From IMG/VR virus record IMGVR_UViG_3300042112_000103, positions 1-21,455 of that record: 21,455 bases of DNA; one strand, 5' to 3'. Position 1 is the first letter of the stretch. Every line of letters begins with the position of its first letter. The position numbers and the translations under genes were made by a program. Origin of the DNA: a virus. Positions 305-21,455 of this stretch are shown here, piece after piece. The notes beneath the pieces were generated by a model. It saw only the letters and a program-made list of their open reading frames with translations, was not told the DNA's origin and did no database searches.

Positions 305-573
305 AACCAGTCCTCCCGCCCGTCCGATCCGGCGAACGCAGATGGCGCAAAGTCCCCGATCACATCCGGGCAATGATACTCAAGGAGCATCCAACAATCT
401 CCTACTCAGAACTCTCTAAGAAATACAACCTCTCAAACTCCGTACTGTGGTACATCCGTAACAACGTCAAATTCCCAAGTAAGTACAAAAAAAATGAATC
501 TTCGAGAATACCAAAAACGAGTCGTCAACTGGGCCAAGACATCGGACGGACTGATCATCGCCCCAGCCGGTAG
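301..573 (+). CDS. Small basic protein with putative helix-turn-helix, 90 aa
   Basis: The start is the ATG at 301, which overlaps the previous stop (ATGA). Upstream extension to 166 would only read the previous gene out of frame. Residues about 20-50 (HPTISYSELSKKYNLSNSVL and on) look like a helix-turn-helix: a helix, a short turn, then a second helix with a YNLS boundary. The C-terminal part is rich in Lys, Arg and Ser. A DNA-binding role, perhaps regulating this block, is inferred. The last 80 bases overlap the beginning of the helicase gene in another frame, so the functional protein may end near residue 65, with the rest being a tail set by the overlap. Confidence in the gene is moderate and in the function low. 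Confidence 0.55.
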   Translation: MKPVLPPVRSGERRWRKVPDHIRAMILKEHPTISYSELSKKYNLSNSVLWYIRNNVKFPSKYKKNESSRIPKTSRQLGQDIGRTDHRPSR

Positions 574-2611
574 CGGCAAGACCTGGATCGCCGCTTCAAT
601 CGTCAACCTCTATCCCAATGATCGCATCGGCTGGTTAGCTCCAACAATCGAAACCTGCAAACAGGCAAAGGTAGCCCTCGACCTAGCCGGTGTTGATCCC
701 GCTCGCTACGAGATCCGATGCCCGCATGAGAGCGTCGATTTCACCAAGTGCGAACTCCTGATAGTGGACGAGTGCTTTCCTAGTTGGACAAAAATAGGCC
801 ATAAAAACATCAGCGAAATCAAAGCTGGAGACATGGTTGATTCGTACAACCACGATTTAAAAACCGTTGAAAAACGCAGAGTTCTTGAGGTCTTCAAAAC
901 GCCAGCACCGGACACAATGGTGACGGTTTGGACTGAAAACGGTCCAACAACCTGTACGCCAGGACACCCGTTCTGGAACGGATTCAAATATGTTCCAGCC
1001 GTGAGCTTGACACGCGACGATGTGGTGGCAATCATTCCATCGCATGAACATGGAATGCAGAGAATGTGGGTCGATGACCGAAAGAAAAGGTCATTTTTCA
1101 ACAACTCGGAAGCCGGTTTGCAATCAATGCAAAATCGCTCTCAGGTTAAAGAAAAAGAAACGCGTCGAAACTCAATGTGCTTGGTGCAAAACGCCAGTCA
1201 CCTGCATGGGGAGAACACCGGCTTACAAGAGTCTGGATGCAATCAAACGTGGTCGAGCATACTGCTCGACTCAGTGTCGGGATTTGATGGTTTCAAAAAT
1301 GAGTTCGGAAACAATGTCGGCCACCAACAAGCGGATGGGCGACAGGATTTCCAAATGGATGTCAGAGAGGATTGTCTCGGACCAGACCAGAAAACGCATA
1401 TCGGAATCGCTGAAAAAGATCGGCCACAAGCCAAAGTTGCGCGGAGGAAATGGGAAAGGCCCAACATTGCCGCAAAAAATTCTTTCGCTTATGTGCAATC
1501 TACAAATGGAGTATCCGATACGAACAGCAAACAGTGGGATTCCAAATGTTCCAAATTGCTACAAAGTGGATCTGGCGAGACCAGAAGTGAAACTAGCAAT
1601 CGAGGTGGACGGTTCGTCGCACGATTCACTCGAAAGGAAAGCTGCGGACAAAAAGAAAACAGAAACACTCAATTCACTAGGGTGGTGCGTGTTGAGGTTC
1701 ACAAACAAGGAAGTGATTCTTGGATCTCTGGAATGCTCGGAGAAAATTTTGTCTACAATTTCTCAGTTGAGGGGAATGAAAATTACTTCGCAAACGGAAT
1801 CCTAGTTCATAACTGCAAACACAGCCCAGCGAACCAATGGAAGCGTGTGGTCGAGCAGTGTAACGGGCGGCGTTATGGATTCGATGCGACTCCGTGGTGC
1901 GATGATCCAGATCGGAATGAAGTCCTGCGGAAGCTCTTCCGCAATCGTCAGATCGAGATCACCAGGGGCGACATCGGTGATTCATTGGCCGACGCAACCC
2001 TAGTCCTTTCCAACGCTACCGACATGGGTCTTGAGATGCGAATCGACAACAACATCGAGCGGTTGTTCAAAGATCGCCGTCGGTACATGAGGATAAGTGA
2101 CGACGAATTGAAACGGATGTGCGCTTGGGAATCCATCGTGGACATCGGCATCTGCCAGAACACCGCTCGCAACGAGTACGCCCGTGACGTTGCCATAACG
2201 CATGGCGATATGCAGACATTGATCCTGGTCCCGCGCATCACGCTCGGCGAGTGGTACGAGCATGAGATCCCCGGTGCCAGATTGGTTCACTCCAAGATCG
2301 GGAAGAAGGATCGACGCTTCTACATGGAGGAGTTCAAGAGCGGCAACCTGAAGACGATGATCGCCACCTCTTTGGCCGACGAAGGACTCGATCTTCCGAA
2401 TGCGGAGCTGTTGATCATGGTGAGCGGAGGGCGGTCTCCGCAGAAGACGATCCAGCGGGCCAGCCGTGTGTTGCGGAAGACATCGGATAAAAATAACGCG
2501 ACAATCTATGATTTCACGGACAAGTTCCATCCTATCGGAGCGTTCCACGCTCGGAAGCGAATCAAATCATACAAACAACTTGGGATCATAGATGAGTGCG
2601 AGTCCAACTGA
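494..2611 (+). CDS. DExH-box superfamily 2 DNA helicase, interrupted by an intein
   Basis: The 705-residue precursor contains a 347-residue intein (residues 94-440), leaving a helicase of about 358 residues after splicing, a usual size for compact phage SF2 helicases. Visible motifs: an N-terminal REYQ motif (Q7), Walker A APAGSGKT (23-30), motif Ia near WLAPTIETC, and motif II reconstituted across the splice point as VDE/CKH. Then come GFDATPW after the intein, ILVPR, motif V ATSLADEGLDLP and motif VI QRASRVLRK with its arginines. It should use ATP to unwind or remodel DNA in phage replication or recombination, as suggested by its SSB, resolvase and primase-helicase neighbours. The ATG at 494 lies inside the preceding gene and lacks a strong Shine-Dalgarno, but MNLREYQKR is a typical start for this family. 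It overlaps the SSB-like gene by 20 bases. Activity should depend on splicing because the intein splits motif II. Confidence 0.9.
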   Translation: MNLREYQKRVVNWAKTSDGLIIAPAGSGKTWIAASIVNLYPNDRIGWLAPTIETCKQAKVALDLAGVDPARYEIRCPHESVDFTKCELLIVDECFPSWTKIGHKNISEIKAGDMVDSYNHDLKTVEKRRVLEVFKTPAPDTMVTVWTENGPTTCTPGHPFWNGFKYVPAVSLTRDDVVAIIPSHEHGMQRMWVDDRKKRSFFNNSEAGLQSMQNRSQVKEKETRRNSMCLVQNASHLHGENTGLQESGCNQTWSSILLDSVSGFDGFKNEFGNNVGHQQADGRQDFQMDVREDCLGPDQKTHIGIAEKDRPQAKVARRKWERPNIAAKNSFAYVQSTNGVSDTNSKQWDSKCSKLLQSGSGETRSETSNRGGRFVARFTRKESCGQKENRNTQFTRVVRVEVHKQGSDSWISGMLGENFVYNFSVEGNENYFANGILVHNCKHSPANQWKRVVEQCNGRRYGFDATPWCDDPDRNEVLRKLFRNRQIEITRGDIGDSLADATLVLSNATDMGLEMRIDNNIERLFKDRRRYMRISDDELKRMCAWESIVDIGICQNTARNEYARDVAITHGDMQTLILVPRITLGEWYEHEIPGARLVHSKIGKKDRRFYMEEFKSGNLKTMIATSLADEGLDLPNAELLIMVSGGRSPQKTIQRASRVLRKTSDKNNATIYDFTDKFHPIGAFHARKRIKSYKQLGIIDECESN
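773..1813 (+). mobile_element. Intein in helicase motif II, with a nested out-of-frame endonuclease
   Basis: The intein is 347 residues in the helicase frame. It starts with Cys1 (TGC 773-775, in VDE/CFPSW) and ends with His-Asn (1808-1813), followed by Cys+1 (TGC 1814-1816, CKHSP). Block B has the TxxH motif TPGH within TCTPGHPFW. The C-terminal blocks are recognisable in VYNFSVEGNENYFANGILV then HN. All residues expected for protein splicing (Cys1, block B Thr and His, penultimate His, terminal Asn, Cys+1) are present, so splicing looks possible. Between about 1050 and 1700 the helicase frame encodes no LAGLIDADG or HNH domain, only a Gln/Asn/Ser/Gly/Arg-rich stretch without stops. The same bases encode a homing endonuclease one base out of phase (separate entry). 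Hand-counted GC is near 40-43% at 1081-1200 and about 60% at 541-600, which suggests arrival from elsewhere. Confidence 0.93.
1050..1805 (+). CDS. Vsr-like (EDxHD/DUF559-type) homing endonuclease in an alternative frame of the intein
   Basis: This frame is offset from the helicase frame and opens after a TGA at 1008-1010. From the ATG at 1050 it gives 251 residues. In order: CREC and CNQC (one zinc finger, residues about 3-27), CAWC and CSTQC (a second, about 43-76), then a NUMOD3-like segment with MSERIVSDQTRKRISESLKK. The RGGNGKGPTLPQK linker follows, and then a Vsr-fold nuclease core: YKVDLARPEVKLAIEVDGSS then HD, an RK/DKKK helix, and LGWCVLRFTNKEV. The likely catalytic residues are the Asp in KVDLA, Glu and Asp in IEVDG, and the following His. 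The expected role is cutting intein-free helicase alleles to drive intein homing. Starts at 1020, 1044 and 1074 are also possible and none has a clear ribosome site. The stop TAG at 1803-1805 lies only eight bases before the intein ends. This is not a frame shadow: the domain order and conserved residues match a known nuclease family. Confidence 0.85.
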   Translation: MECRECGSMTERKGHFSTTRKPVCNQCKIALRLKKKKRVETQCAWCKTPVTCMGRTPAYKSLDAIKRGRAYCSTQCRDLMVSKMSSETMSATNKRMGDRISKWMSERIVSDQTRKRISESLKKIGHKPKLRGGNGKGPTLPQKILSLMCNLQMEYPIRTANSGIPNVPNCYKVDLARPEVKLAIEVDGSSHDSLERKAADKKKTETLNSLGWCVLRFTNKEVILGSLECSEKILSTISQLRGMKITSQTES

Positions 2612-2933: not shown

Positions 2934-3377
2934 ATGAAAAAAGAAATCAGACAGGTGGCTGCGTTCATGGCCAGCTTTGGCCAGGACACAAAGGTCAATC
3001 CACGGATACCGGATGAAAAGACTCGCTCCCTTCGCCGTGCATTGATCGACGAGGAGGCCGCAGAACTCGAAGCATCCAAAGATCCGGTCGAAGCACTCGA
3101 CGCCATCGCCGACCTCCTCTATGTCGTCTACGGAGCGGCAATCGCTTACGGATTCAGCGAGGATCAGGTCGAGCGAGCGTTCCAGACGGTTCACGAATCG
3201 AATATGTCGAAGCTCTGGGCACCGGCTGAATTGCAGTCGATCAATCAGTTGGCCAATATGCCAAAGGATTACACGGTCGAGAAAACCGGGGTCCGCTACA
3301 TCGTGAAGCGTAAGGACGGCAAGATCATCAAGAGTCCTTCGTACAAACCAGCCGACATCGCCTCCTGCCTCAAATGA
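2934..3377 (+). CDS. MazG-like / PRA-PH-like nucleotide pyrophosphohydrolase
   Basis: The 147-residue, mostly helical product contains the all-alpha NTP pyrophosphatase pattern: DEEAAELE (about residues 39-46, giving the ExxE metal ligands), followed by EALDAIADLLYVVYGAAIAY (about 53-72, with Asp56 and Asp60) and an HESNMSKL motif (87-94) typical of phage members. Such enzymes cleave the alpha-beta phosphate bond of nucleoside triphosphates using Mg ions; in phages they are thought to alter host nucleotide or alarmone pools. The last 50 or so residues (GVRYIVKRKDGKIIKSPSY) form a short beta-rich basic tail beyond the catalytic core, also common in phage versions. It begins nine bases after the SSB-like gene and its stop overlaps the resolvase start as ATGA (3374-3377). 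Confidence 0.8.
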   Translation: MKKEIRQVAAFMASFGQDTKVNPRIPDEKTRSLRRALIDEEAAELEASKDPVEALDAIADLLYVVYGAAIAYGFSEDQVERAFQTVHESNMSKLWAPAELQSINQLANMPKDYTVEKTGVRYIVKRKDGKIIKSPSYKPADIASCLK

Positions 3378-3826
3378 AAACCATCGTCGCTTGTGACCCA
3401 GGGGTGAATGGCGGTTTCGCGATCAAGACCCAAGACGGAATCATCCTCCTTCCGATGCCCGAATCGGTGCCGGACATGGCCCAGTTGATCAGCGGATTCA
3501 AGACGACCGAATCCCATTTCTGGATCGAGAAACTGCCCAAGTTCGTGTCGAGCCTGACACCGGCAGCAACGATGGCCACGCTCCACGAGAACTACGGCAT
3601 CTGCCAAGGACTGGCCTACGCATACGGTTACGCCCTGCATCGGGTCGAACCGAAGATATGGCAGGAACCGCTTGGATTAGGCGGCAAGAAGTCCTGTGCG
3701 AGCGGACCTGAGTGGAAGCGAAAGCTCAAATCGAAGGCTCAAGAACTCTATCCAAGCCAAGATGTAACGCTAAAGAACTGCGATGCGTTGCTCATTCTTC
3801 ACTACGCACTGGGTGGAGGTCGTTGA
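3374..3826 (+). CDS. RuvC-like Holliday junction resolvase
   Basis: The 150-residue product has the RNase H-fold signature of RuvC-type resolvases. ACDPGVNGGFAI (residues 6-17) carries the first catalytic Asp8, HFWIEKLP (48-55) carries Glu52, and NCDALLILHYA (135-145) carries the final Asp137 in a helix, with a preceding Lys-rich segment. It probably cuts four-way or branched DNA to make concatemers packageable or to finish recombination, fitting its place after the helicase, SSB and MazG-like genes. It starts in an ATGA overlap with the MazG-like gene. A crossover-junction endodeoxyribonuclease is the best reading; other RNase H-fold nucleases are less likely given the DPGxNGG start. Confidence 0.85.
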   Translation: MKTIVACDPGVNGGFAIKTQDGIILLPMPESVPDMAQLISGFKTTESHFWIEKLPKFVSSLTPAATMATLHENYGICQGLAYAYGYALHRVEPKIWQEPLGLGGKKSCASGPEWKRKLKSKAQELYPSQDVTLKNCDALLILHYALGGGR

Positions 3827-3860
3827 CAAATGATAATACTACGCTGATCCGCATAAAAAC

Positions 3861-3962
3861 ATGAGAATGAATCGCAGAGACGAGATCAAGTCGATAGCCA
3901 TCGCCGCTTTCGCAATGGGTCTCATTGTTGCAACAGCTTGGTTTCTTTTGTTCGTACTATGA
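3861..3962 (+). CDS. Small single-span membrane protein, 33 aa
   Basis: A 33-residue frame begins MRMNRRDEIK and continues as an almost uninterrupted hydrophobic helix (IAIAAFAMGLIVATAWFLLF) to its stop. The basic N-terminus followed by a transmembrane segment suggests an N-in orientation by the positive-inside rule. The TGA at 3960-3962 overlaps the ATG of the next gene (ATGA 3959-3962), the same coupling as the neighbours, which supports a real gene despite its size. An alternative start is the ATG at 3867. I do not recognise the family; it could be a small membrane effector. It is unlikely to be a full holin. Confidence 0.55.
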   Translation: MRMNRRDEIKSIAIAAFAMGLIVATAWFLLFVL

Positions 3963-4153
3963 ATACAACCATCCGAGTAGCAGAAGCAGACGAGTCATCA
4001 CCAAAACTCAACTTCGAGGACTTCAACCGTGCTTATCGCAAGTGGTTGATCCGCCGAGGATTCAACGATGAGGTCGAGCGAATCGACCGATTCAAAGGTA
4101 TCGCCCAGAGGTGCCGCGACAAGAAGGCAGCGAAAAAGAAACCTACCAAATGA
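3959..4153 (+). CDS. Small basic hypothetical protein, 64 aa
   Basis: The ATG at 3959 was chosen over one at 3938 because it makes an ATGA overlap with the preceding small membrane gene. The product has an acidic N-terminal third, a central helix-like segment (FEDFNRAYRKWLIRRGF) and a strongly basic tail (KKAAKKKPTK). No domain is recognised. The basic tail could contact nucleic acid, but this is a guess. Its stop overlaps the next start as ATGA at 4150-4153. Confidence 0.6.
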   Translation: MNTTIRVAEADESSPKLNFEDFNRAYRKWLIRRGFNDEVERIDRFKGIAQRCRDKKAAKKKPTK

Positions 4154-4347
4154 AAGAATCGACGATCACTAGAGAACAGTTGTTGAAAGAGGCACCACGA
4201 CTGGTCGAGTATGCAATCATGCGAGGATGGATGGCCTACCCAAAAAAGAAGGCCACTGTCCCCGATCACTGGAGCAACTCTCACCATTCTAAAGATGAAG
4301 ACATTCAAAAATTCCGTCAGACCATCACTGAAGGTTCAGGTGATTGA
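4150..4347 (+). CDS. Small hypothetical protein, 65 aa
   Basis: It starts at the ATG at 4150, coupled by ATGA to the gene before; an upstream ATG at 4111 in the same frame would only read that gene out of frame. The product is polar, with an amphipathic N-terminal segment (TREQLLKEAPRLVEYAI), a basic patch (YPKKKA) and an acidic C-terminus. No family is recognised. It overlaps the following gene by up to 53 bases, depending on that gene's start. Confidence 0.55.
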   Translation: MKESTITREQLLKEAPRLVEYAIMRGWMAYPKKKATVPDHWSNSHHSKDEDIQKFRQTITEGSGD

Positions 4348-4483
4348 TGACGATGCGGAGATCCGAATTGGCGAAATGAAGGTGCCAGCCGTGGCCTACG
4401 TTCGAGAAGGCCGCAAGAAGGTGAGCATCCGAACCAAGGAGGAGTTCAAGGCGAAGTTCGTTCGGGATGAACCGGAATCCTGA
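4295..4483 (+). CDS. Small hypothetical protein, 62 aa
   Basis: From the ATG at 4295 the product is MKTFKNSVRPSLKVQVIDDD and on to a basic, beta-rich middle (VPAVAYVREGRKKVSIRT) and a charged tail ending DEPES. A GTG at 4340 would give 47 residues and an eight-base overlap with the preceding gene instead of 53. The sequence before 4340 looks protein-like, so I favour ATG 4295, with modest certainty. Function is unknown. It overlaps the next gene by 17 bases. Confidence 0.5.
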   Translation: MKTFKNSVRPSLKVQVIDDDAEIRIGEMKVPAVAYVREGRKKVSIRTKEEFKAKFVRDEPES

Positions 4484-4694
4484 CACCTACATCGACGCTC
4501 AGGCAAAGCTCTTTGAACACTTCGACCAAAGGCGAATCAGAATTCAATTTTGGTCGAAGTATCTGATCACTCCAAAGGAGCTTGCCCTGCTGTTCAAGCG
4601 GAACCGCGAGCATCGTCAGTTCATTCAGGAAATAGCGTCATCGGACCTTGGTGAGGCGGGACGCAAAGCGCGTACATATCTTGGAATCACATGA
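4467..4694 (+). CDS. Small hypothetical protein, 75 aa
   Basis: The product is 75 residues, rich in Arg, Phe and Gln. It has two helix-like stretches, YIDAQAKLFEHFDQRR and ITPKELALLFKRNREHRQF; the second resembles a winged-helix or HTH arm but is too short to call. Its stop overlaps the start of the primase-helicase as ATGA (4691-4694), so its translation is probably coupled to that protein and it might be an accessory factor. The function is not known. Confidence 0.6.
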   Translation: MNRNPDTYIDAQAKLFEHFDQRRIRIQFWSKYLITPKELALLFKRNREHRQFIQEIASSDLGEAGRKARTYLGIT

Positions 4695-6505
4695 ATACAA
4701 TCGAACGGGCGCGGGCATGGCTTGCCAACGTCCCAGGAGCGGTCTCCGGCCAGAACGGCCATTCCCAAACATTCACAGCAGCTACAGGTCTCGTTCACGG
4801 GTTTGAACTGACCGCTGGTGACGCGCTCGCGTTGCTATCGGAATGGAACCAGAAATGTAGCCCCAAATGGAGCGATGCGGAGCTTCGGCATAAGATCACC
4901 CAAGCCGAGAAAACACCGCACACGAACGCCAAGGGCTACCTAAGGAACACCCGTTCGACCGGCAATCCGGTCTCGATGACGGGCAAGTTCGTCGTTCGCA
5001 AGATCCTTGCATTACCGGAACAGACTTCCCGATTTTCAACCGAGGACTTCCTCAAAGCCTGTTTCGATCCAGAGGATACGGTCTGCATCTGCAACGAGAT
5101 CATCACGGATGACGAAGGCCGATCTAGGCCCGCTTCCAAGGGGACATACCTCAAGAGGGACGAATGGATCAAATCGCACTTCACCGCGCCCATATCGCCA
5201 ATGTGGACCGGCAAAGAGGCCCGTGGTGCGTATGTACGGATCAATCCATGCAGCGACCAGACCGGAACCGATTCTGGCGTCTCAACCTTCCGCCATGTCC
5301 TGGTCGAGATGGATGAGAAGTCGAAGGATGAACAATGGACGATCCTGAAGGAGTCGAACCTGCCGTTCTCGGTCATCATCGATTCAGGCGGAAAAAGTCT
5401 GCACGGTTGGGTCCGAGTGGATGCTGCCAACCGCGACGAATGGGAGCAGCGAAGGAATGTGGTGTATCAACACCTCGATCACCTTGGGGTTGATCCTAAG
5501 AACAAGAATGCCAGTCGCTTTAGCCGGTTGCCCGGAGTGATGCGGAACGGTGTCGAGCAGAAGCTCTTGGCCCTGAATCAGGGTGCGCCGTGTTGGGACG
5601 ATTTCATCGATCACTTGGAGTCGGCCAATCTGCCGAGCAAGTTCGATCTCGTTGACATCATCACCTACGACAAGGAGAACGATCCTGACAACCTGATCGG
5701 TGACCGCTGGTTGCGCCGTGGAACCAGCCTTCTCTTTGTGGGACAAAGTGGATGCGGCAAATCGTCCTTGGTGATGTCGCAAGCGATCCATTGGTCGCAT
5801 GGATTGTCATGGTTCGGGATAGCCCCGATCAGACCGCTGAAGGTGATGGTGATCCAAGCGGAGAACGACATCGCGGATATGCACGATTCGCTGATCGGTG
5901 CGGCGAAGGGGGTGTTCTCGGATTACTGGGAATCGAAGATCCGAGAATCTGGAATTGAGTTCTACCGCGAGACGGTTCGGGTCGGGATCGATTTCACGAC
6001 GATGCTTCGGAAGATGGTCAAGAAATCGAAGCCTGACATCGTGTACATCGATCCGCTGCTTTCGTACATCGGCGGTAACCCTGCGGACATCGAGGTATGC
6101 TCGCAATTTACTCGGCAACAGCTTCAGCCTTTGATGATCGAGACGGGTGTGATCATCGTGCTTGTGCATCACTTCCCGAAGCCGAAGGGGAAGGATGAGA
6201 AACCTGAGAGCGTGGCAGAGATGGCCTACTCAGGATTTGGATCGAGCGACCTTACGAACTGGGCGCGAGAGGTGATGGTGCTGCGTGAAGTGGGCTACAA
6301 TATGCCGAGGAAGTTCCTGCTTGGGTTGGCCAAGAGATCGATGCGGAGCGGATTACAGGATCGTGAAGGAAAGAAGACAGGCGGGATCACTATCCAGCAT
6401 TCGTTGAAGAACATATGCTGGGAGTATGCGCCACCGGAGGTCTTCACGGTGGACAAGGAGCAGAAGCGGAAGAAGGCGAATGGCTACCGCAAGAAATTCG
6501 GCTGA
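4691..6505 (+). CDS. Primase-helicase: AEP-like primase fused to RepA-type hexameric ATPase
   Basis: The 604-residue product has three parts. Residues about 5-87 form a helical domain common at the N-terminus of phage primases (ALALLSEWNQKCSPKWSDAE, then HKI). Residues about 190-320 resemble an archaeo-eukaryotic primase core: VEMDEK (Glu206, Asp208, acidic metal pair), DSGGKSLHGWVRV (231-243, with His238) and ASRFSRLPG (274-282). The C-terminal part is a RecA/RepA-like ATPase: Walker A VGQSGCGKSS (350-359), Walker B DIVYIDPLLSYIGG (Asp454), and VLVHHFPKPKG as a sensor region. It should prime and unwind DNA at the fork. The acidic pair reads ExD rather than the usual DxD, so primase activity needs testing. 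It follows an ATGA overlap and ends against the convergent tail block. Confidence 0.82.
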   Translation: MNTIERARAWLANVPGAVSGQNGHSQTFTAATGLVHGFELTAGDALALLSEWNQKCSPKWSDAELRHKITQAEKTPHTNAKGYLRNTRSTGNPVSMTGKFVVRKILALPEQTSRFSTEDFLKACFDPEDTVCICNEIITDDEGRSRPASKGTYLKRDEWIKSHFTAPISPMWTGKEARGAYVRINPCSDQTGTDSGVSTFRHVLVEMDEKSKDEQWTILKESNLPFSVIIDSGGKSLHGWVRVDAANRDEWEQRRNVVYQHLDHLGVDPKNKNASRFSRLPGVMRNGVEQKLLALNQGAPCWDDFIDHLESANLPSKFDLVDIITYDKENDPDNLIGDRWLRRGTSLLFVGQSGCGKSSLVMSQAIHWSHGLSWFGIAPIRPLKVMVIQAENDIADMHDSLIGAAKGVFSDYWESKIRESGIEFYRETVRVGIDFTTMLRKMVKKSKPDIVYIDPLLSYIGGNPADIEVCSQFTRQQLQPLMIETGVIIVLVHHFPKPKGKDEKPESVAEMAYSGFGSSDLTNWAREVMVLREVGYNMPRKFLLGLAKRSMRSGLQDREGKKTGGITIQHSLKNICWEYAPPEVFTVDKEQKRKKANGYRKKFG

Positions 6506-6695: not shown

Positions 6696-7007
6696 TCAGA
6701 TTGGGTTTGAGGTTAGAACCGACAGAACAATCGCAAGACCCCACGCGGCGCATGACCAGAACTTAGCCGTCGTCTTGTCCTTCGCACTCGCGCAATTATG
6801 CCGCGCACGGAAGTTCTTACGACGCTCAGGATTGTCGCGTTTGATCTCCATATTGGGATCGCCGAATCGGACGATGACAACCTTGCCAGCCGGATTCTTG
6901 ACGTACACCGCGCTCTTCTTCCGCTCGCCCGGAGTGTAGAACGGCTTGTTGAGCGTCACCTTACGACCCTTGTAGGTATTACCTTTTTTGGAGAGTGAGG
7001 TTTTCAT
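6696..7007 (-). CDS. Conserved phage protein with FGDPNMEIKRDNPERRKNFR-type motif, 103 aa
   Basis: Residues about 43-86 read GKVVIVRFGDPNMEIKRD, NPERRKNFRARHNC, then KTTAKFWSCAAW. This block, including the paired Cys and the final SCxAW, is one I recognise as recurrent in phage proteins, alone or fused to scaffold or protease-like proteins; its function is not established to my knowledge. The N-terminus is basic, with a beta-like segment (YKGRKVTLNKPFYTPG). After the motif comes a short hydrophobic tail (GLAIVLSVL) that may be a partial membrane helix. The ATG overlaps the stop of the giant gene upstream by one base (TAATG), implying coupled translation. A late-expressed structural or morphogenesis role is inferred. 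Confidence 0.7.
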   Translation of the reverse strand: MKTSLSKKGNTYKGRKVTLNKPFYTPGERKKSAVYVKNPAGKVVIVRFGDPNMEIKRDNPERRKNFRARHNCASAKDKTTAKFWSCAAWGLAIVLSVLTSNPI

Positions 7008-10000
7008 TAGTCGCGGCGACGCATCTGACGCTGTGTTTCACGAAGCACCTGTTCCGATTCCTTACGGTCTTCCTCTCGCATCAAATACCTGTCGGTTTCA
7101 AGCGAAAGCAGCTTTGGCCACCTGCGATTGAAGTTGTCCATTTGAGCTTTTTCGAGCGCATCAATCGGAGTCGAAACAATGCGGAGATACTCTGGACTCC
7201 TCAACGATTTTCCAGCCGATGCGATACCACTAGCCGACAGAATATTAACGAGAGCGGTTCTTCCGTAGAAATTGGCACCAGAAACGGCAGCGACAGCGGA
7301 TGTGACAGCCGGTATGATCTTCCTGCTGAGCATCGAATCCAGCTTCGTAACCTGAGACAGTTGGTCCGCAATCTTGTTCAACTGATCAACTCCGGTCTTT
7401 CCAAAAGCAGAATTGATCAGTGGGTTGTATTTGTCGGCAATGAGGTTCCTCATCTTTTCGATGTCAACCTCACGCTTACCTGGAACCACGGACTCCTTGA
7501 GAATGTTTCCAACGATGAAGTTTTGAACATCGCCAAGAAGCTCCGGTCGGTTGTTCTTGATTACATCGAAAAATTGATCGGTGACATACCGCTGCTTCAG
7601 CTCTCCATGCGGAGAAGTAAGGAACCGAACAATGTCTTCTGGGCTGGCATCGCCATAAAGATTTCCGGTGTCGATTGATTTGCGAACCAACCTTTGAAAA
7701 TCAGTTCCTTGTTTTGCCTGTTCTTGAACGTACAGCTTCAAATCATCGGCAAACCTTCTGGCATCAGGGTTTGACATGATTGCCTTGAGCTGATCGTCAT
7801 CAAGATTGATCGGACGCTTGCTTTTGACCGCCTCTTTGATGGTTGATAATGCGTCAACCACCTGACGAGTTCTGTCGTCCATCTCTTTGAACTCAGGGCC
7901 AAGGTCAGGAGAAGGACGGTTAAGCCGATCGATTTCTTTCTGGTTTGCGGCGAGCTTTGTTTCAACCTCGTTGAGCAAACCGCGAGCAGCCTTATCACCA
8001 GCATCGATCCTCGACTGAAGCTCAGCCATCTTGTCGTCCAACTGGACACGCTGAGATTCGAGAGTCGCTTTACGATCAATCAACGAACGGTATTTTTCCG
8101 CGACGTTTTGAATTTCAGTAAGCTGCGGGAAAAACTCGTTGGCAACTTCCTTTGAAAGTCCAGTTCCTTTCGCGGCTCTCGCCTCAGCAATGAGAGACAA
8201 AAACTGGTCGGGAGTTTGGCCGGTCTTCCTCAACTTGTTGTAAACAAAATCAGAAAGAACAGGTTTGAAGACGCCCTCCCATTCGTTTCCTGCGAGACGC
8301 TTGATCAGCTCAAGCGCGGTTCCACCGCTAGGTCCGATAAGGTTGACAATAGATTCAGGTCCGCCACCTGCCTCTCCGGTTTCTCTCAAGAACCGATTGA
8401 TGTACGCCCCTTTGAACCTAGTAATTCCTTCGCGGTAAGACTGATTCTGGGCTTTCAGAGCGTCTCGAAGAGCAGGGTTTTGATCGAGTCCTTCCTGAAT
8501 CTTTCGCTCGATATCTTCCAGCTCTTGAAACTTCTCAAACTTGGCCTGTTGAACAGGTTTTGTGAAATCAATCTGATCAAGAATTTCTGTGCGTTTTTTG
8601 CGAAGATCCTGAACTGTAAAGCTCTCTACAATTTCGTTTCCCTGTTCATCAACGCGACCAGTTGGAACCTGAACTGTAATTGCCTCAAGCTCAGGAGACA
8701 GCTTTCCATATCCTTCATTTTGAACCTTTTTGAAGTCCTTAAGGAGGCGATTGCCCTGTTCACCAACAAACGTGCCAGCCTCCTTTTGTGATATCGCTCT
8801 TCCCATTCCGAACGATGGGTCGAACCCATCCTCGATGTCTTTGATCTGCCTAGCTTTTTCTGCCATCTCGCTTTCGATTCTAGCCCGCTCCACCTGATCA
8901 GTGGCAGGAAGTGCGTTCCTCTGGTTTGAAAGATCGACAATCTCTTTTTTGAGATACTCAGATTCAAGCTGTAAGTCTCCCTCGGCCCTTCGTGCGGCAG
9001 CAATAAGCTCTGCGTTTCTCTCAGCAAACGCGAGGTCCACCTTGCCTTTGGCAGACTTCATCATGTCCTCTGCGTCATAAACGATTTTGCTGACAAGAGC
9101 AGGGTCAACCGACTTGATGTCTGCAACTCGTTGAAGTTCGCCAACCACTTCTTGAATCAAGGCGTCGCCGGACAATCCTCGACGAGTTCCAGAAGCCAAA
9201 GAATCTTGAAGGAACCGTTGAACATTCGATGTCCAGTTTCTGATGTCCTCCGGCCTTTTTCCCATCTTGTCAGGGGAATACAAAGCATTGGCCAACTCTT
9301 CGGCCATCGCAGGATTGATTCCGCCACCAGGTCCAAGCTCTCTTTGAACTTGCTGCGCCCGTTCTTGCAAAAGCTGCTGGGCGTAGGGCCGATTCAATTC
9401 AGCCCAGAATTCCCTTTGAGTCGGCCAACCGCCACGCGATGCAGCGGCGATTCCTCTGGAAATTCCAGAAAATGTGGGCATCAAAGCACCACCGAAAAGC
9501 ATCTGTTTGAACGAGTCTTGAGCAAAGTCTTTGTCTCCAGCAGATGAAACCATGCCTTGCGCCAATCCGGTTGCACCACCGACAGTGGTTTCTTTCGCAA
9601 TCTGTGCGAGGCGAGAAGACTGCTGGCCAACTCCAGTTTCAGCTTTGAGCAGATTTTTCAAAACGCTTGAACCAGGACGGCTGGTTTCAAAGACGTCTTT
9701 CATCGGAGTTTTAAGCCCAAGCGTTGGAACCGCAGAAGCCACAACTTCTTTGACCTCAAACTCATCTGGAGAAATAAACTGCCGTGCAAGTTCAACGGCA
9801 GCACCTCCGATTATTTCACCACCAAGAGTTTGACCACCAGGAAGTCTTGAAACAGCTATTCCAGCGGGAATTGAAAGGACGTTTGACGCAATTCTGCGAC
9901 CTTGTTTTACACGATAATCTACAAACAGTTTTTGTTCGTCAGGCGTCAGATCAATTGGAACTTCTGGATTGAAATTGGTTTCTTCTAGTTTTTGAAACTT

Positions 10001-10345
10001 TTCTGCGCTTGGTCTACCAAGGTAAAGATCTGCCTGTTGAACAAGAAGGCTTTTGGGCCTGAAAGTTCCAGGTTGGTATTGTTCTTTTGATGGTTGAGCT
10101 ATCGATGCAGATGGCAAAGCGGAAACTAGTCCTGCTTCTTCACGTTGCCGCATCTTCCCAATAGTAGCGGATTCGCTAACAGCTTTTTGAAGTTCGTTTG
10201 TAGATCCAACTGGAACTGGTTGCTGGACAGTGGGTGGTGTTGCAGCCTGAGTTTCATCAACAATTTCAAACGGCTGATCAGGGTCGAATCCAGCAGGTTC
10301 AGCCTGATCAACGATTTCAAACGGCTCGTCAGGATTGAATGGCAT
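7007..10345 (-). CDS. Very large internal virion / DNA ejection protein (T7 gp16-like position)
   Basis: The 1112-residue product begins with two copies of FxPDxPFEIVD. Residues about 150-195 contain a long small-residue hydrophobic stretch (VLSIPAGIAVSRLPGG and on). Two Lys/Glu/Gln-rich coiled-coil regions lie near 435-505 and 750-820. Near residue 1010-1050 there is another Ala/Gly/Ser-rich hydrophobic segment (IIPAVTSAVAAVSG), followed by a very basic end (RETQRQMRRRD). I see no transglycosylase catalytic signature, although one could be missed by eye. In short-tailed phages the largest late protein after two smaller internal proteins forms the ejection channel across the cell envelope; size, position, coiled coils and hydrophobic patches fit that. 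A tape-measure-like protein is the main alternative. Hand-counted lines in this gene range from about 40 to 50% GC, below the neighbouring tail genes. Confidence 0.65.
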   Translation of the reverse strand: MPFNPDEPFEIVDQAEPAGFDPDQPFEIVDETQAATPPTVQQPVPVGSTNELQKAVSESATIGKMRQREEAGLVSALPSASIAQPSKEQYQPGTFRPKSLLVQQADLYLGRPSAEKFQKLEETNFNPEVPIDLTPDEQKLFVDYRVKQGRRIASNVLSIPAGIAVSRLPGGQTLGGEIIGGAAVELARQFISPDEFEVKEVVASAVPTLGLKTPMKDVFETSRPGSSVLKNLLKAETGVGQQSSRLAQIAKETTVGGATGLAQGMVSSAGDKDFAQDSFKQMLFGGALMPTFSGISRGIAAASRGGWPTQREFWAELNRPYAQQLLQERAQQVQRELGPGGGINPAMAEELANALYSPDKMGKRPEDIRNWTSNVQRFLQDSLASGTRRGLSGDALIQEVVGELQRVADIKSVDPALVSKIVYDAEDMMKSAKGKVDLAFAERNAELIAAARRAEGDLQLESEYLKKEIVDLSNQRNALPATDQVERARIESEMAEKARQIKDIEDGFDPSFGMGRAISQKEAGTFVGEQGNRLLKDFKKVQNEGYGKLSPELEAITVQVPTGRVDEQGNEIVESFTVQDLRKKRTEILDQIDFTKPVQQAKFEKFQELEDIERKIQEGLDQNPALRDALKAQNQSYREGITRFKGAYINRFLRETGEAGGGPESIVNLIGPSGGTALELIKRLAGNEWEGVFKPVLSDFVYNKLRKTGQTPDQFLSLIAEARAAKGTGLSKEVANEFFPQLTEIQNVAEKYRSLIDRKATLESQRVQLDDKMAELQSRIDAGDKAARGLLNEVETKLAANQKEIDRLNRPSPDLGPEFKEMDDRTRQVVDALSTIKEAVKSKRPINLDDDQLKAIMSNPDARRFADDLKLYVQEQAKQGTDFQRLVRKSIDTGNLYGDASPEDIVRFLTSPHGELKQRYVTDQFFDVIKNNRPELLGDVQNFIVGNILKESVVPGKREVDIEKMRNLIADKYNPLINSAFGKTGVDQLNKIADQLSQVTKLDSMLSRKIIPAVTSAVAAVSGANFYGRTALVNILSASGIASAGKSLRSPEYLRIVSTPIDALEKAQMDNFNRRWPKLLSLETDRYLMREEDRKESEQVLRETQRQMRRRD
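10256..10339 (-). repeat. Tandem FxPDxPFEIVD repeat at the N-terminus of the large ejection protein
   Basis: Residues 3-13 (FNPDEPFEIVD) and 20-30 (FDPDQPFEIVD) are copies spaced 17 codons, or 51 bases. The DNA copies are also similar (TTTGAAATCGTTGAT against TTTGAAATTGTTGAT on the minus strand). Short acidic FDPxxPFE motifs are common at the N-termini of large phage internal proteins and may be a docking or packaging signal; that role is inference. Confidence 0.8.
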
Positions 10346-17606: not shown

Positions 17607-19280
17607 ATGTCTTCAGAGGTGTCCGAGAATCCAATGATCCAACACAAGTACGGCATCAAATCGCCGGTCAAAATACCTGATTTGGAGTTGGAACTTTACT
17701 GTTTTCGCAATCGGCTTCAGCCAAGTGAGGGTGGACTCGGCACTTTCGATCATTTTCGTAACGCCACGAAAATGTTATGGCCGAAGATGAGCTGGAACCC
17801 GTGGCTGGAGAAGCAGATCGAAAGTCTTTGCGACCACGATTACGTTGGATGGGCCGGTTGCGGTGCTTCCGGTAAGACTTTTGGAGCGACTCTTTTCGCG
17901 ACCGTCTGGTGGTTGGCCAATCCATCCAAGACAGCAGTCGTCCTTACGTCCACGACGGCGAAGATGATCCGAAAGCGTATGTGGGCCAATCTTCAGGATC
18001 TGACCCGTACGACTCGTGGATTCCCAGGTAACATGGTGGACTCGAAGATGAGTCTCCAAGCGGTCAAAGGAGATGATCGCCATTCGATCTCAGCGGTAGC
18101 GGTGGCCGAGGGTAACACATCGAAGGCGGTGGCCAACATTCAGGGTATCCACGCTGACCGTGTGATGGTCATCATTGACGAGGCGACGGATACGCCAGAA
18201 GCGGCGTTTGAGGCGTGTACGAACCTCTCGAAAGGTTGTCGCGAGTTCAAGATGCTGGTGATCGGAAACCCTGCATCAAAGTTCGATCCACACGGGAGAT
18301 TCTGCACCCCTGCAAAGGGTTGGCGAAGTGTGACGATTGAAGACCAGCATTGGCTGACTGAACGCGGGATGTGCTGTCGATTCGACGGCATGAAGAGTCC
18401 GAACATCAGTGAAGGTCGGACGAAGTATTCATACCTTATAACGCATGATCAGGTCTTATCCGCTATGCGACATGAGGGTGAGCAAAGCCCCACATTTTGG
18501 AAGTACACACGCGGATTTTGGGCTCCTGACGGAATGGTCAAAACCGTCTTGTCCGAAGCATTGGTCGAGACTCATTCGCCTCATAAAAAGCTGATTTTCA
18601 CCTCAAATGCTCAGGAAGTTGCTGCTCTTGACCCCGGTTTCGGTGGCGACCGATGTATCCTGCGGTTCGCCAAGGTCGGGACTGCCAACGACAAGGCGAG
18701 CATCTTGTTTGGCGACGTCATCCAAATATCGCCGAACGCGGCATTGCCCGATCCCGTCCATTACCAGATCGCCAATCGGGTCAAGGAGGAGTGCGTCAAG
18801 AGAGGAATTCAACCGGACAGATTCGCTCTTGATTCAAGCGGTGAAGGCGGTGGTTTGGCCGACATTTTGACCCGTGAATGGGGCATCGTTCATCGCGTCG
18901 AATTTGGCGGTTCACCATCGACGATTCCTGTCAGCGACGAGGACAGTAGGCCATGCAATGAGGCTTATGACCGGAAGGTGACTGAGCTTTGGTTCTCGAT
19001 GCGGAAATGGGTCGTCGAAGAGCGGATCGGTGGTCTTGATCTTGAGACGATGCAGGAGTTCTGCTCGCGGATGTTTGATGACGGCAAGCGTAAGATAGCG
19101 GTCGAATCAAAGACCGTGATGAAGCAGAGGACAGGGCGATCACCTGACTTGGCTGATGCGGCTGTCGTTTTGCTCGATCTGGTGAGGAAAACTGTTCAGT
19201 TCGAGCCGAGGAGAACCAAGGTCGATAAGATATGGGAAAAGCTCGTCGCTGAATCTGACATGATTTACCACGACATCTAG
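17607..19280 (+). CDS. terL: Terminase large subunit (packaging ATPase-nuclease)
   Basis: The 557-residue product has the two-domain terminase layout. ATPase: Walker A GCGASGKT (84-91, Lys90), VVLTSTTAKMIRKRMW as the strand after it, Walker B VMVIIDEATDT (186-196, Asp191-Glu192), and a coupling-type motif near MLVIGNPAS (216-224). Nuclease (RNase H fold): AALDPGFGGDRC (Asp342), RFALDSSGEGGG (Asp409) and RSPDLADAAVVLLDL (Asp514, Asp517). It pumps DNA into the procapsid and cuts concatemers. The start ATG is preceded by AAGGG six bases upstream. No small terminase subunit is visible in the window. The cysteine-rich gene begins two bases after its stop, followed by the portal. Confidence 0.93.
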   Translation: MSSEVSENPMIQHKYGIKSPVKIPDLELELYCFRNRLQPSEGGLGTFDHFRNATKMLWPKMSWNPWLEKQIESLCDHDYVGWAGCGASGKTFGATLFATVWWLANPSKTAVVLTSTTAKMIRKRMWANLQDLTRTTRGFPGNMVDSKMSLQAVKGDDRHSISAVAVAEGNTSKAVANIQGIHADRVMVIIDEATDTPEAAFEACTNLSKGCREFKMLVIGNPASKFDPHGRFCTPAKGWRSVTIEDQHWLTERGMCCRFDGMKSPNISEGRTKYSYLITHDQVLSAMRHEGEQSPTFWKYTRGFWAPDGMVKTVLSEALVETHSPHKKLIFTSNAQEVAALDPGFGGDRCILRFAKVGTANDKASILFGDVIQISPNAALPDPVHYQIANRVKEECVKRGIQPDRFALDSSGEGGGLADILTREWGIVHRVEFGGSPSTIPVSDEDSRPCNEAYDRKVTELWFSMRKWVVEERIGGLDLETMQEFCSRMFDDGKRKIAVESKTVMKQRTGRSPDLADAAVVLLDLVRKTVQFEPRRTKVDKIWEKLVAESDMIYHDI

Positions 19281-19282
19281 TT

Positions 19283-19900
19283 ATGGGTTACAAGCTACTG
19301 AATACTCACATTGTTCCACCGGGAAACTGGATTTATCGGGTTCCAGAGACCGGCATCGAGATTATTGCAAGTTCATGGCAGCAACTGGTCACCTTTGTTC
19401 AGGACCACTACAAGTCGAATGCCATAAAGATTCCTGACAATTTGGAAGAATTATTGGTGGAATTTTCATGCAAAAGGGGTGTCGAGTGCAGCTATAACGA
19501 TGTCGAGATCCCTCAAGTCAAAGGCACCAGATCGTTCCAGATCGGTGATGTCGTGAGGTTCAGCATGAGCTTGGCCCACGGTCTTACGATCGGTGGTGGT
19601 AAGGTTGCACCGCACGAAGCTACAAAAAGGGCAGCTATCTGTGCGTCCTGCATCTACAACCGGCAACCGCATGGGTGCAGTTCGTGCAATAACCGTGTCA
19701 TAAAAGAGACTGTAAAGGTGTTATCAGCTCATGGGTCCACGCCTTACGACGACGCGCTGAAAAGCTGCGAATTTTGCGGTTGTTTTATCAGAAGCATGGT
19801 TTGGTTTCCCATTGAAACCCTCCATAAATTCACAGACTCTGCGGAGAACAAGAACCTTCCGGCCCATTGCTGGAAAAAAAGACCATGTACGGATCAATAG
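19283..19900 (+). CDS. Cysteine-rich putative zinc-binding phage protein
   Basis: The 205-residue product sits between terminase and portal. Its first half (VPPGNWIYRVPETGIEI, then SSWQQLVTFVQDHYKSN) is an unidentified mixed alpha/beta domain. The second half holds CASC (120-123) and CSSC (132-135), a complete four-Cys zinc-ribbon spacing, and CEFCGC (162-167) with H195-C196 and C202 as a possible second site. It starts two bases after the terminase stop without a clear ribosome site, so reinitiation is likely. It overlaps the portal start by 16 bases. Position suggests a packaging or head-assembly role, but the family is unknown to me. A small terminase is not supported, since no HTH is visible. 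Confidence 0.7.
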   Translation: MGYKLLNTHIVPPGNWIYRVPETGIEIIASSWQQLVTFVQDHYKSNAIKIPDNLEELLVEFSCKRGVECSYNDVEIPQVKGTRSFQIGDVVRFSMSLAHGLTIGGGKVAPHEATKRAAICASCIYNRQPHGCSSCNNRVIKETVKVLSAHGSTPYDDALKSCEFCGCFIRSMVWFPIETLHKFTDSAENKNLPAHCWKKRPCTDQ

Positions 19901-21455
19901 CTCAACTGCCTCTTCAGACGCTCAACGAGAACGGGACGGCACCCGATACGCGCATTGAGGATGCAGCGTCAGCTCGTGAAATCTTCCAGAAGCTCATCAT
20001 GGCCGACGAGCTTCGGAACAATACGCGAGCCAAGCTGCGTGGTCTTGTTGACGGTAATCCGCCTTACAACCCTGCCGAACTGAGGCGGAACAACCAGGCT
20101 TATCGGACCAACGTGAACTTCCGCGAATCGGAAGCGTTCCTGACGTTGGCCATGTCTGCCTTCTACGATGTATTCGCCGAGGTTCCGACCTACGCGACGA
20201 TCAAGACCGCTTACGGCAACGACATCGACAAGCGTGAGGAGTGGTCGAAGATCATCACCGAGGAGTTCGACCGTCTTCAGAAGCTCGACAAGGATTTCGA
20301 CTATATCATGCAGCTTTCGCAGCGTGAGATGGTCTTGATCGGTCATGGTCCGCTGATCTTCGAGGATTCCAACAACTGGCGATGCAAGGCGATCCTCGCC
20401 ACGGATCTCCTGGTTCCTGACGGCACGAAGTCCAACGTGAGCGACTGGAAGGTGGCTGTCGTTCGCGTCCGCATGGGCGTCGATGATCTGTTCGAGAAGA
20501 TTCAGGACGAAGAAGCTGCCCGTGCTGCCGGTTGGAATGTCGATTATGTCCGCCAGCGTATCCGTGCTGCGATGCCTGAGCCGTATCGCTCCGGTGTGCA
20601 GTACGATTGGGAGTTCTTCCAGCGTCAGCTTCGCTCGAACGACATCACGTTCTCGGCTCGTTCCGAGGTGGTGATGATGGCCCATGTCTTCTACAAGGAG
20701 TTCGATGGGAAGATCAGCCATTGCATCATCGATGAGCGTGACAGCGAGGACTTCATGTATCGGAAGCTGCGCCGGTTCTCCAAGTGGGAGCAGGTGATTC
20801 ATCCGATGTATTACGACCGTGGTGATGGCGAGCATCACGGCGTGAAGGGCTTGGGCATCAAGATGCTTCAGGCGATGGAGCTGAAGAATCGTCTTCGCTG
20901 CTCGATGGTGGATAGCGCGTTTGCTCGGACGCAGATCCTTTTCAAGCCTCTCAACCCGAATGCTCTGAGCAAGACGAGTGTCGTGCAGCAGGGGCCGTAC
21001 GCGATTGTTCCGCCCGATTATGATGTCATTCAGCAAAATGTTGCGGGCGTTCTGGACGCGCCTATGGCGGTCAACGCCGACCTTGAAAACGTCCTCCAAG
21101 GCAACCTCTCGCAGTACCGGCAATCCCTCAACAAGCCTCAAGGAAATCCGCGCACCGCGACCGAAATCCAAGCAATCGTCTCGCAGCAAAGCGCGATTGG
21201 TAAGACTCAACTGAGTCGGTATTACAATCAGCTTGATGCTTTCTTCGAGGAGCGTTTCCGTCGTGCTTCCAATCCGAATCTGAATCCGATCACGAAGAGT
21301 GATCGCGATGCCATCGAGTTCCAGCGTCGTTGTCGTGAGCGCGGCGTTCCTGATCAAGCCATGCTTGATTTGGATTACGTCGAGGCGACTCGGACGGTGG
21401 GCCAAGGATCTCAGTTCGCTAAGCAGCAGCTTCTCGGATCGCTTCTCGGTCTGCT
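19885..21455 (+). CDS. Portal (head-tail connector) protein, 3' end outside the window
   Basis: The frame is open from the ATG at 19885 to the end of the window (523 full codons). It starts MYGSIAQLPLQTLNENG. Features expected of podovirus head-tail connectors include an N-terminal helical region (REIFQKLIMADELRNNTRAK), the wing-like segment FRESEAFLTLAMSAFYDVFA, WEQVIHPMYYDRGDGEHHG then VKGLGIKMLQAMELKNRL, a strand QGPYAIVPPDYDVIQQN, and the NPRTATEIQAI motif near residue 430, which is characteristic of these portals. Portals form dodecameric rings at one capsid vertex, dock the terminase and later hold the tail. The start overlaps the cysteine-rich gene by 16 bases. A long antisense frame over it is an artefact of codon bias. 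Confidence 0.88.
   Translation, partial: MYGSIAQLPLQTLNENGTAPDTRIEDAASAREIFQKLIMADELRNNTRAKLRGLVDGNPPYNPAELRRNNQAYRTNVNFRESEAFLTLAMSAFYDVFAEVPTYATIKTAYGNDIDKREEWSKIITEEFDRLQKLDKDFDYIMQLSQREMVLIGHGPLIFEDSNNWRCKAILATDLLVPDGTKSNVSDWKVAVVRVRMGVDDLFEKIQDEEAARAAGWNVDYVRQRIRAAMPEPYRSGVQYDWEFFQRQLRSNDITFSARSEVVMMAHVFYKEFDGKISHCIIDERDSEDFMYRKLRRFSKWEQVIHPMYYDRGDGEHHGVKGLGIKMLQAMELKNRLRCSMVDSAFARTQILFKPLNPNALSKTSVVQQGPYAIVPPDYDVIQQNVAGVLDAPMAVNADLENVLQGNLSQYRQSLNKPQGNPRTATEIQAIVSQQSAIGKTQLSRYYNQLDAFFEERFRRASNPNLNPITKSDRDAIEFQRRCRERGVPDQAMLDLDYVEATRTVGQGSQFAKQQLLGSLLGL

Follow-up and report, generated by a model that had tools for sequence, protein, structure and literature searches.

The stretch of DNA analysed here, referred to as the window, is a virus record of 21,455 bases (IMGVR_UViG_3300042112_000103, positions 1 to 21,455). 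According to the ORF list and Pfam, an SF2 helicase ORF (494-2611) forms one continuous frame with an intein inside it, and it matches the profiles ResIII (E 2e-7, whole ORF), Helicase_C and Intein_splicing. The intein is inserted within helicase motif II (LLIVDE|CKH), with its Cys1 codon at 773-775 and its last Asn codon at 1811-1813. The +1 frame of the intein encodes a DUF559-type nuclease. Other large ORFs in the window, named from their translations only, code for a protein of 1112 aa (7007-10345, minus strand), a terminase-like protein (17607-19280, plus strand) and a portal-like protein (19867-21453, plus strand).

Table 1. Features of the intein-nuclease element in the window, and mini-inteins among its relatives. 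Loci with an L number are relatives.
Feature	Position or locus	Strand	Evidence
N-extein, SF2 helicase N-terminal part up to ..LLIVDE (motif II)	494..772	+	Pfam ResIII E 2e-7 on whole ORF
Class-1 intein, helicase frame, 347 aa, Cys1 to Asn, then Cys+1 (1814-1816)	773..1813	+	Pfam Intein_splicing E 1.7e-9; TIGR01443 E 3e-8; precise empty alleles L021-L023
Splicing fold, N-terminal half (blocks A and B, TxxH)	773..1042	+	model residues 1-90, pLDDT block means at least 90
Intein-frame linker: open, unconstrained as intein protein, constrained as nuclease	1043..1673	+	intein-given-nuclease mean z 0.53 over 1152-1671; pLDDT <50 throughout residues 91-293, with one exception
DUF559-type (Vsr/EDxHD-like) nuclease with N-terminal CxxC pairs, +1 frame, ATG 1050, TAG stop	1050..1805	+	Pfam DUF559 (PF04480) E 4e-12; fold matches 3hrl, 3r3p; mean pLDDT 92
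Dual-coded zone 1: nuclease GWCVLRFTNKEV.. / intein strand RVVRVEV..	1674..1736	+	mean z 7.1 (intein), 15.9 (nuclease), 56 loci; 4.2, 10.3 in 28 loci
Dual-coded zone 2: nuclease helix SEKILSTISQL / intein block F	1737..1769	+	mean z 11.9 (intein), 8.2 (nuclease), 56 loci; 7.5, 5.1 in 28 loci
Nuclease read-through tail and stop, bases constrained as intein only	1770..1805	+	nuclease-given-intein mean z 0.82 (56 loci), 0.23 (28 loci); tail codons at background
C-extein, remaining helicase (CKHSPA.., Helicase_C)	1814..2611	+	uninterrupted in empty alleles L021-L023
Mini-inteins, 135-146 aa, nuclease body absent	L136, L157, L208, L216, L225		DE|CFPAGT sample

Near the intein end, the helicase frame (start 494) reads ENFVYNFSVEG NENYFANGILVHN|C. 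Over the same bases the +1 frame reads SEKILSTISQLRGMKITSQTES and then terminates at TAG 1803-1805, a stop which is made by the Leu-Val codons of the intein (CTA GTT) and lies 8 bases before the intein end. A preliminary description of the window, made from the letters alone, had placed the block F translation and the splicing blocks correctly, and likewise SEKILSTISQL in the nuclease frame, the stop and the eight-base gap. It had also recognized a resemblance of the nuclease end to the terminal helix of its family, and indeed this helix aligns without gaps to the end of the solved DUF559 protein 3hrl.

Both products have the characteristics of their families. The intein carries Cys1, the TxxH of block B, the C-terminal HN and Cys+1, as class-1 inteins do; among 28 sequences C1, T62, H65, H346 and N347 are invariant and C348 is nearly so. 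A structure model of the intein frame (23 sequences) is confident for residues 1-90 and from about residue 294 (base 1652) onward, while the middle is unstructured. Foldseek pairs it with inteins and HINT domains (best E 3e-5), which identifies the HINT fold. Sequence and model together identify the element as a class-1 intein that is predicted to splice. For the nuclease, D174, D187, H191 and D200 are invariant in 57 aligned rows and E185 is nearly so, which is the DUF559/EDxHD core. In addition to the Pfam match, the nuclease matches 3hrl by profile (E 8.6e-13). Its structure model, made from 52 sequences, ends in a helix at residues 226-245, and its nearest folds are 3hrl (E 6e-3) and I-Bth0305I, 3r3p (E 9e-3), which are modest E-values for PD-(D/E)XK-like structures.

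Alleles with and without the intein occur at one exact site, as expected for a homing element. Three relatives (L021-L023) lack precisely 773-1813, and the exteins of L021 and L022 are 97-98% identical in protein to those of the window. In another relative, L073, a free-standing nuclease (3013-3654) overlaps with its end the start of an intein-less SF2 helicase (3620-5281), the motif II of which is DEAH, not DECH. This nuclease is possibly one that homes beside a resistant allele.

Relatives were searched with the nuclease alone or with the helicase; in one nuclease search, 80 of 333 relatives were fetched. Among 107 loci with a nuclease match, some of which are one contig fetched twice, 102 carry the nuclease in the +1 frame, enclosed by an open ORF that includes an intein C-terminus. 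The five exceptions are three bacterial chromosomal DUF559 genes (L027-L029), a cut contig (L060) and the free-standing L073. Nine further loci from later scans agree with the +1 arrangement, several being contigs already counted. We also collected 100 stretches independently of the nuclease, using a DNA pattern for the N-terminal intein motif DE|CFPAGT; as this pattern was derived from the family's own motif, the sample has no bearing on inteins in general. The nuclease is in the +1 frame in 88 of them, L200 has a shortened one in the +1 frame, five are mini-inteins and six are too short to tell. Not one of the 100 carries a nuclease in the intein's own frame or in the third frame.

The element occurs in named phages of Vibrio (CP-T1, 159E43-1b, 103E44.1, 1.088.O, 1.194.O, K391), Corynebacterium (phi673) and Pseudomonas (MR14). 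Their records (L030-L037) show a single CDS across the element, called helicase, P-loop, hypothetical or 'coil containing', and annotate neither an intein nor a separate nuclease. A scan of five host ORFs identified three SF2 helicases, a terminase (L014) and a clamp-loader-like AAA protein (L015); in the last of these, the +1 element likewise splits an IDE|CHQ site. No relative was found on plasmids, and the search of genome contigs returned only three distant bacterial DUF559 loci, with no intein. A scan with the L014 nuclease found its own contig only, and one with the N-terminal half of the intein as protein found four loci that are 99% alike. As the register of nuclease STI over intein VYN is kept in nearly all loci, the +1 intein-nuclease looks to have been inherited once and then spread.

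Four of the five mini-inteins (L136, L157, L208 and L225; 141-146 aa) still read the nuclease end in the +1 frame from the GW-LRF motif onward, although the Gly of GW is changed in L136 and L208. The fifth, L216 (135 aa), has no such ghost in the +1 frame. The intein with the shortened nuclease, L200, has 196 aa and is perhaps an intermediate in nuclease loss.

Selection in the two frames was analysed by codon tests. From the 102 loci, 57 remained at less than 75% nuclease identity and 56 were used; L108 was left out because its C-terminus did not fit. In test (a) the nuclease residues were held, codons were redrawn from the usage of each nuclease, and the likeness of intein residues across loci was compared to that expected. 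In test (b) the intein residues were held, extein codon usage was applied, and the likeness of nuclease residues was compared to that expected. A stricter set comprised 28 loci with less than 50% identity, where the linker was scored over 1176-1671. As the loci share ancestry, the z and binomial values overstate certainty and are not to be read as probabilities.

The linker calibrates test (a), with a mean z of 0.53 in (a) and 11.4 in (b) over 1152-1671 (0.19 and 7.8 in the stricter set), while the tail (1770-1802) calibrates test (b), with 11.4 in (a) and 0.82 in (b) (7.9 and 0.23). Therefore, both frames are constrained only in the two zones between 1674 and 1769 (Table 1). These approximately 96 bases are selected in both frames, as is characteristic of overlapping genes, and 1770-1805 are not. 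The two structure models place the edges of this region where the codon test does: the nuclease helix is confident up to base 1769 (block mean 98 at residues 231-240, followed by blocks of 70 and 41), and the C-terminal half of the intein is confident from 1652. Individual columns are less uniform, as the intein frame exceeds z 3 in only 52% of the zone 1 columns of the stricter set, and tail column 1791 has a z of 5.0 in the 56 loci and of 1.3 in the 28. Conservation in the third frame was tried as a control and rejected, as bases that are under constraint from two frames do not give a clean value; it is also raised, with means of 2.2 and 6.4 in the dual-coded zones and 4.8 in the tail.

The preliminary description had proposed selection in both frames over 1737-1805. 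The first half of this interval, 1737-1769, bears this out. The second half does not, and an absence of constraint on the nuclease frame, along with a nuclease that works without its last 20-25 residues, had been regarded in that description itself as the mark of read-through to the first stop. The limits thus have to be moved to 1674-1769. Shared coding begins 63 bases upstream of the proposed interval, where the nuclease motif GWxVLRF coincides with the intein beta-strand RVDSVEI. Dual coding is real, and it is general, deeper and older than had been thought.

Codon choice points in the same direction. In the nuclease motif GWxVLRF, Gly is GGG in 46 of 56 cases (background 0.32), Leu is TTR in 44 of 48 (0.43) and Arg is AGR in 49 of 56 (0.37), which matches the needs of the intein strand RVDSVEI. 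In VYN of intein block F, Val is GTC in 48 of 53 cases (0.29), Tyr is TAC in 46 of 53 (0.53) and Asn is AAT in 45 of 52 (0.43), as the nuclease STI requires. Control codons in the tail are near background (Tyr TAC 31 of 53, 0.53; Asn AAT 22 of 40, 0.43). All six biases persist in the 28-locus set, with p between 2e-3 and 5e-10 if ancestry is ignored. Third codon positions of the intein were then compared among ten near relatives, the window and nine loci that are 71-82% DNA-identical to it. They vary at 9 of 11 positions in the tail and 26 of 28 in the extein, versus 3 of 11 in zone 2 and 4 of 21 in zone 1 (zones 7/32 against tail plus extein 35/39, p 5e-9; zone 2 alone against the tail, p 0.03 on small counts). 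Each of the nine variable tail positions alters a nuclease residue.

In all 56 non-redundant loci, the intein frame stays open over a stretch of up to 170 nuclease codons, while 0.055 loci would be expected under synonymous recoding, and openness is thus far from chance. In 55 of the 56 loci, the nuclease frame terminates within the last 19 codons of the intein, compared to 31.2 +/- 3.3 expected, a value that depends on the codon-usage model. Therefore, it seems that a stop before the extein is selected while its exact place is free. Stops precede the intein end by 8 to 50 bases. The nuclease ORF runs into the C-extein in L053 (stop 3765) by 37 bases and in L108 (stop 3891) by 217. Natural nucleases stop at the STI position, as in L052, L062, L070, L077 and L094, or a few residues beyond it, as in CP-T1 (STISK) and L014 (STILKLK).

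We are highly confident that the element is a mobile intein, the homing endonuclease of which is overprinted in the +1 frame rather than being an in-frame domain, with a doubly selected overlap. Two other readings deny one of the frames its function at the overlap. If the nuclease needed nothing past about 1736, all of 1737-1805 would serve the intein only. Such plain read-through is what we see in 1770-1805, and the variable nuclease length past STI is in agreement with it. Upstream of the tail, however, the nuclease frame exceeds z 3 at each of the 11 zone 2 columns in the 56 loci (at 64% of them in the strict 28), the Val, Tyr and Asn codons of block F are far from extein background while those of the tail are near it, and the helix is present both in solved 3hrl and in the free-standing L073 nuclease. 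The latter shares 38% identity with the window nuclease in an alignment of 205 positions, which reaches residue 240 of the window protein, and it keeps the helix (NLNYCLQKINFCIAEVL) without the Ser-Thr. We thus regard read-through from 1736 as improbable. Conversely, the intein frame might be a by-product of a nuclease insertion that is tolerated without splicing, in the style of ShiLan. The unconstrained linker would fit such an origin, but the class-1 splicing residues are all conserved (C1, TxxH, block F, HN, C+1) and the intein halves model as an intein fold, which makes this reading very improbable.

Two further readings concern the way in which the +1 frame is reached. A +1 ribosomal frameshift in the N-terminal half of the intein, rather than internal initiation, could yield the nuclease as a fusion protein; this was weighed by upstream stops and by SD-like motifs. 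A +1 offset that is fixed in all embedded loci would be expected from it, and some loci are without a good start or SD motif: none of the four ATGs of the window nuclease is preceded by an SD-like motif, and no ATG, GTG or TTG precedes the first conserved cysteine of L094 and L096. Several loci, however, have a nuclease-frame stop 3-6 codons before that cysteine, which leaves little room for a frameshift. Moreover, SD-like motifs of at least 5 bases precede 30 of 131 nuclease-frame ATG or GTG codons within the 60 codons before it, as opposed to 1 of 128 when this region is read in the other frames and 47 of 1214 inside the nuclease. Counted by locus, this is a large minority (23 of 53, with 5.5 expected). 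A frameshift fusion is thus unlikely, and internal initiation is the likely route in many loci, judging from these start-site signals; the window nuclease may be translated in its own phage as well. That a sequencing error or a real indel displaced a nuclease which had once been in frame, as it is in classic inteins, can be dismissed: the same +1 offset recurs in Vibrio, Corynebacterium and Pseudomonas phages and in the 102 of 107 loci, with both frames open.

Returning to the overprinted homing intein, we propose the following course. Ribosomes on the helicase frame would produce N-extein, intein and C-extein. The middle 200 residues of the intein form an unstructured spacer, and its two halves would splice out. 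Ribosomes that start inside the intein (at ATG 1050 in the window) would produce a separate zinc-finger/DUF559 nuclease, which may cut intein-free helicase alleles at the DE-C-x-H codons of motif II; repair of the cut allele would then copy the intein in. In this arrangement, the nuclease gene starts just after the N-terminal splicing half and ends inside the C-terminal one. Bases 1674-1769 encode two beta-strands of the splicing fold and, in the other frame, the beta-strand and the helix with which the nuclease core ends, while 1770-1805 serve only the intein, the nuclease reading on to the next stop.

On balance, but with reservation, we favour the wider view that these phage inteins form a widespread and undescribed class with a single origin, in which the homing nuclease is always in the +1 frame and overlaps the splicing domain by some 96 bases that are selected in both frames. 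Upon loss of the nuclease body, a mini-intein would keep the C-terminal ghost, because these bases are needed for splicing, and annotation would show one 'helicase'. In many diverged phages, two enzymes with unrelated folds use common bases for a strand and a helix, which makes the limits of overprinting measurable codon by codon. The element explains a set of unnamed phage proteins, it is a warning that annotation hides +1 nucleases, and it is a source of new homing nucleases and mini-inteins. If the proposal is true, the overlap ties the nuclease and intein genes together.

Classic inteins carry an in-frame homing endonuclease domain (LAGLIDADG, HNH). The window element resembles them in its splicing blocks A, B, F and G, in a nuclease between B and F and in its empty alleles, but its nuclease is a separate +1 product that overlaps the C-terminal splicing blocks. 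Among EDxHD/DUF559 nucleases, I-Bth0305I (3r3p) and NGO0050 (3hrl) are the nearest by fold and profile and have the conserved Asp/Glu/His core, while the window nuclease has an additional CxxC-rich N-terminus. To our knowledge, neither of these two is overprinted on an intein. Dassa et al. are said to have described in 2009 fractured genes in which the parts of a split intein flank a free-standing nuclease. There, likewise, a Vsr-like nuclease is tied to an intein without being fused to it, but the host gene is in two ORFs, whereas the window helicase is one unbroken ORF.

We found no printed description of a doubly selected intein class in the literature covered, to which bioRxiv 10.1101/2025.01.02.630785 does not belong. 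A work on overlapping frames, the title of which suggests overlapping intein and nuclease frames and which may be a prior report, is cited in PMC11855218. The same article describes ShiLan, an out-of-frame HNH insertion in phage methylases. As in the window, a homing-type nuclease is encoded out of frame within a host gene that stays open, with its stop near the insertion end and its start without a clear ribosome binding site (PMC11855218). The ShiLan nuclease, however, is of the HNH type and its authors find no intein splicing domain, whereas the window has a DUF559-type nuclease, a complete intein and doubly selected bases (PMC11855218). Out-of-frame insertion of a nuclease is known from ShiLan, while its doubly selected overlap with a complete intein may be new.
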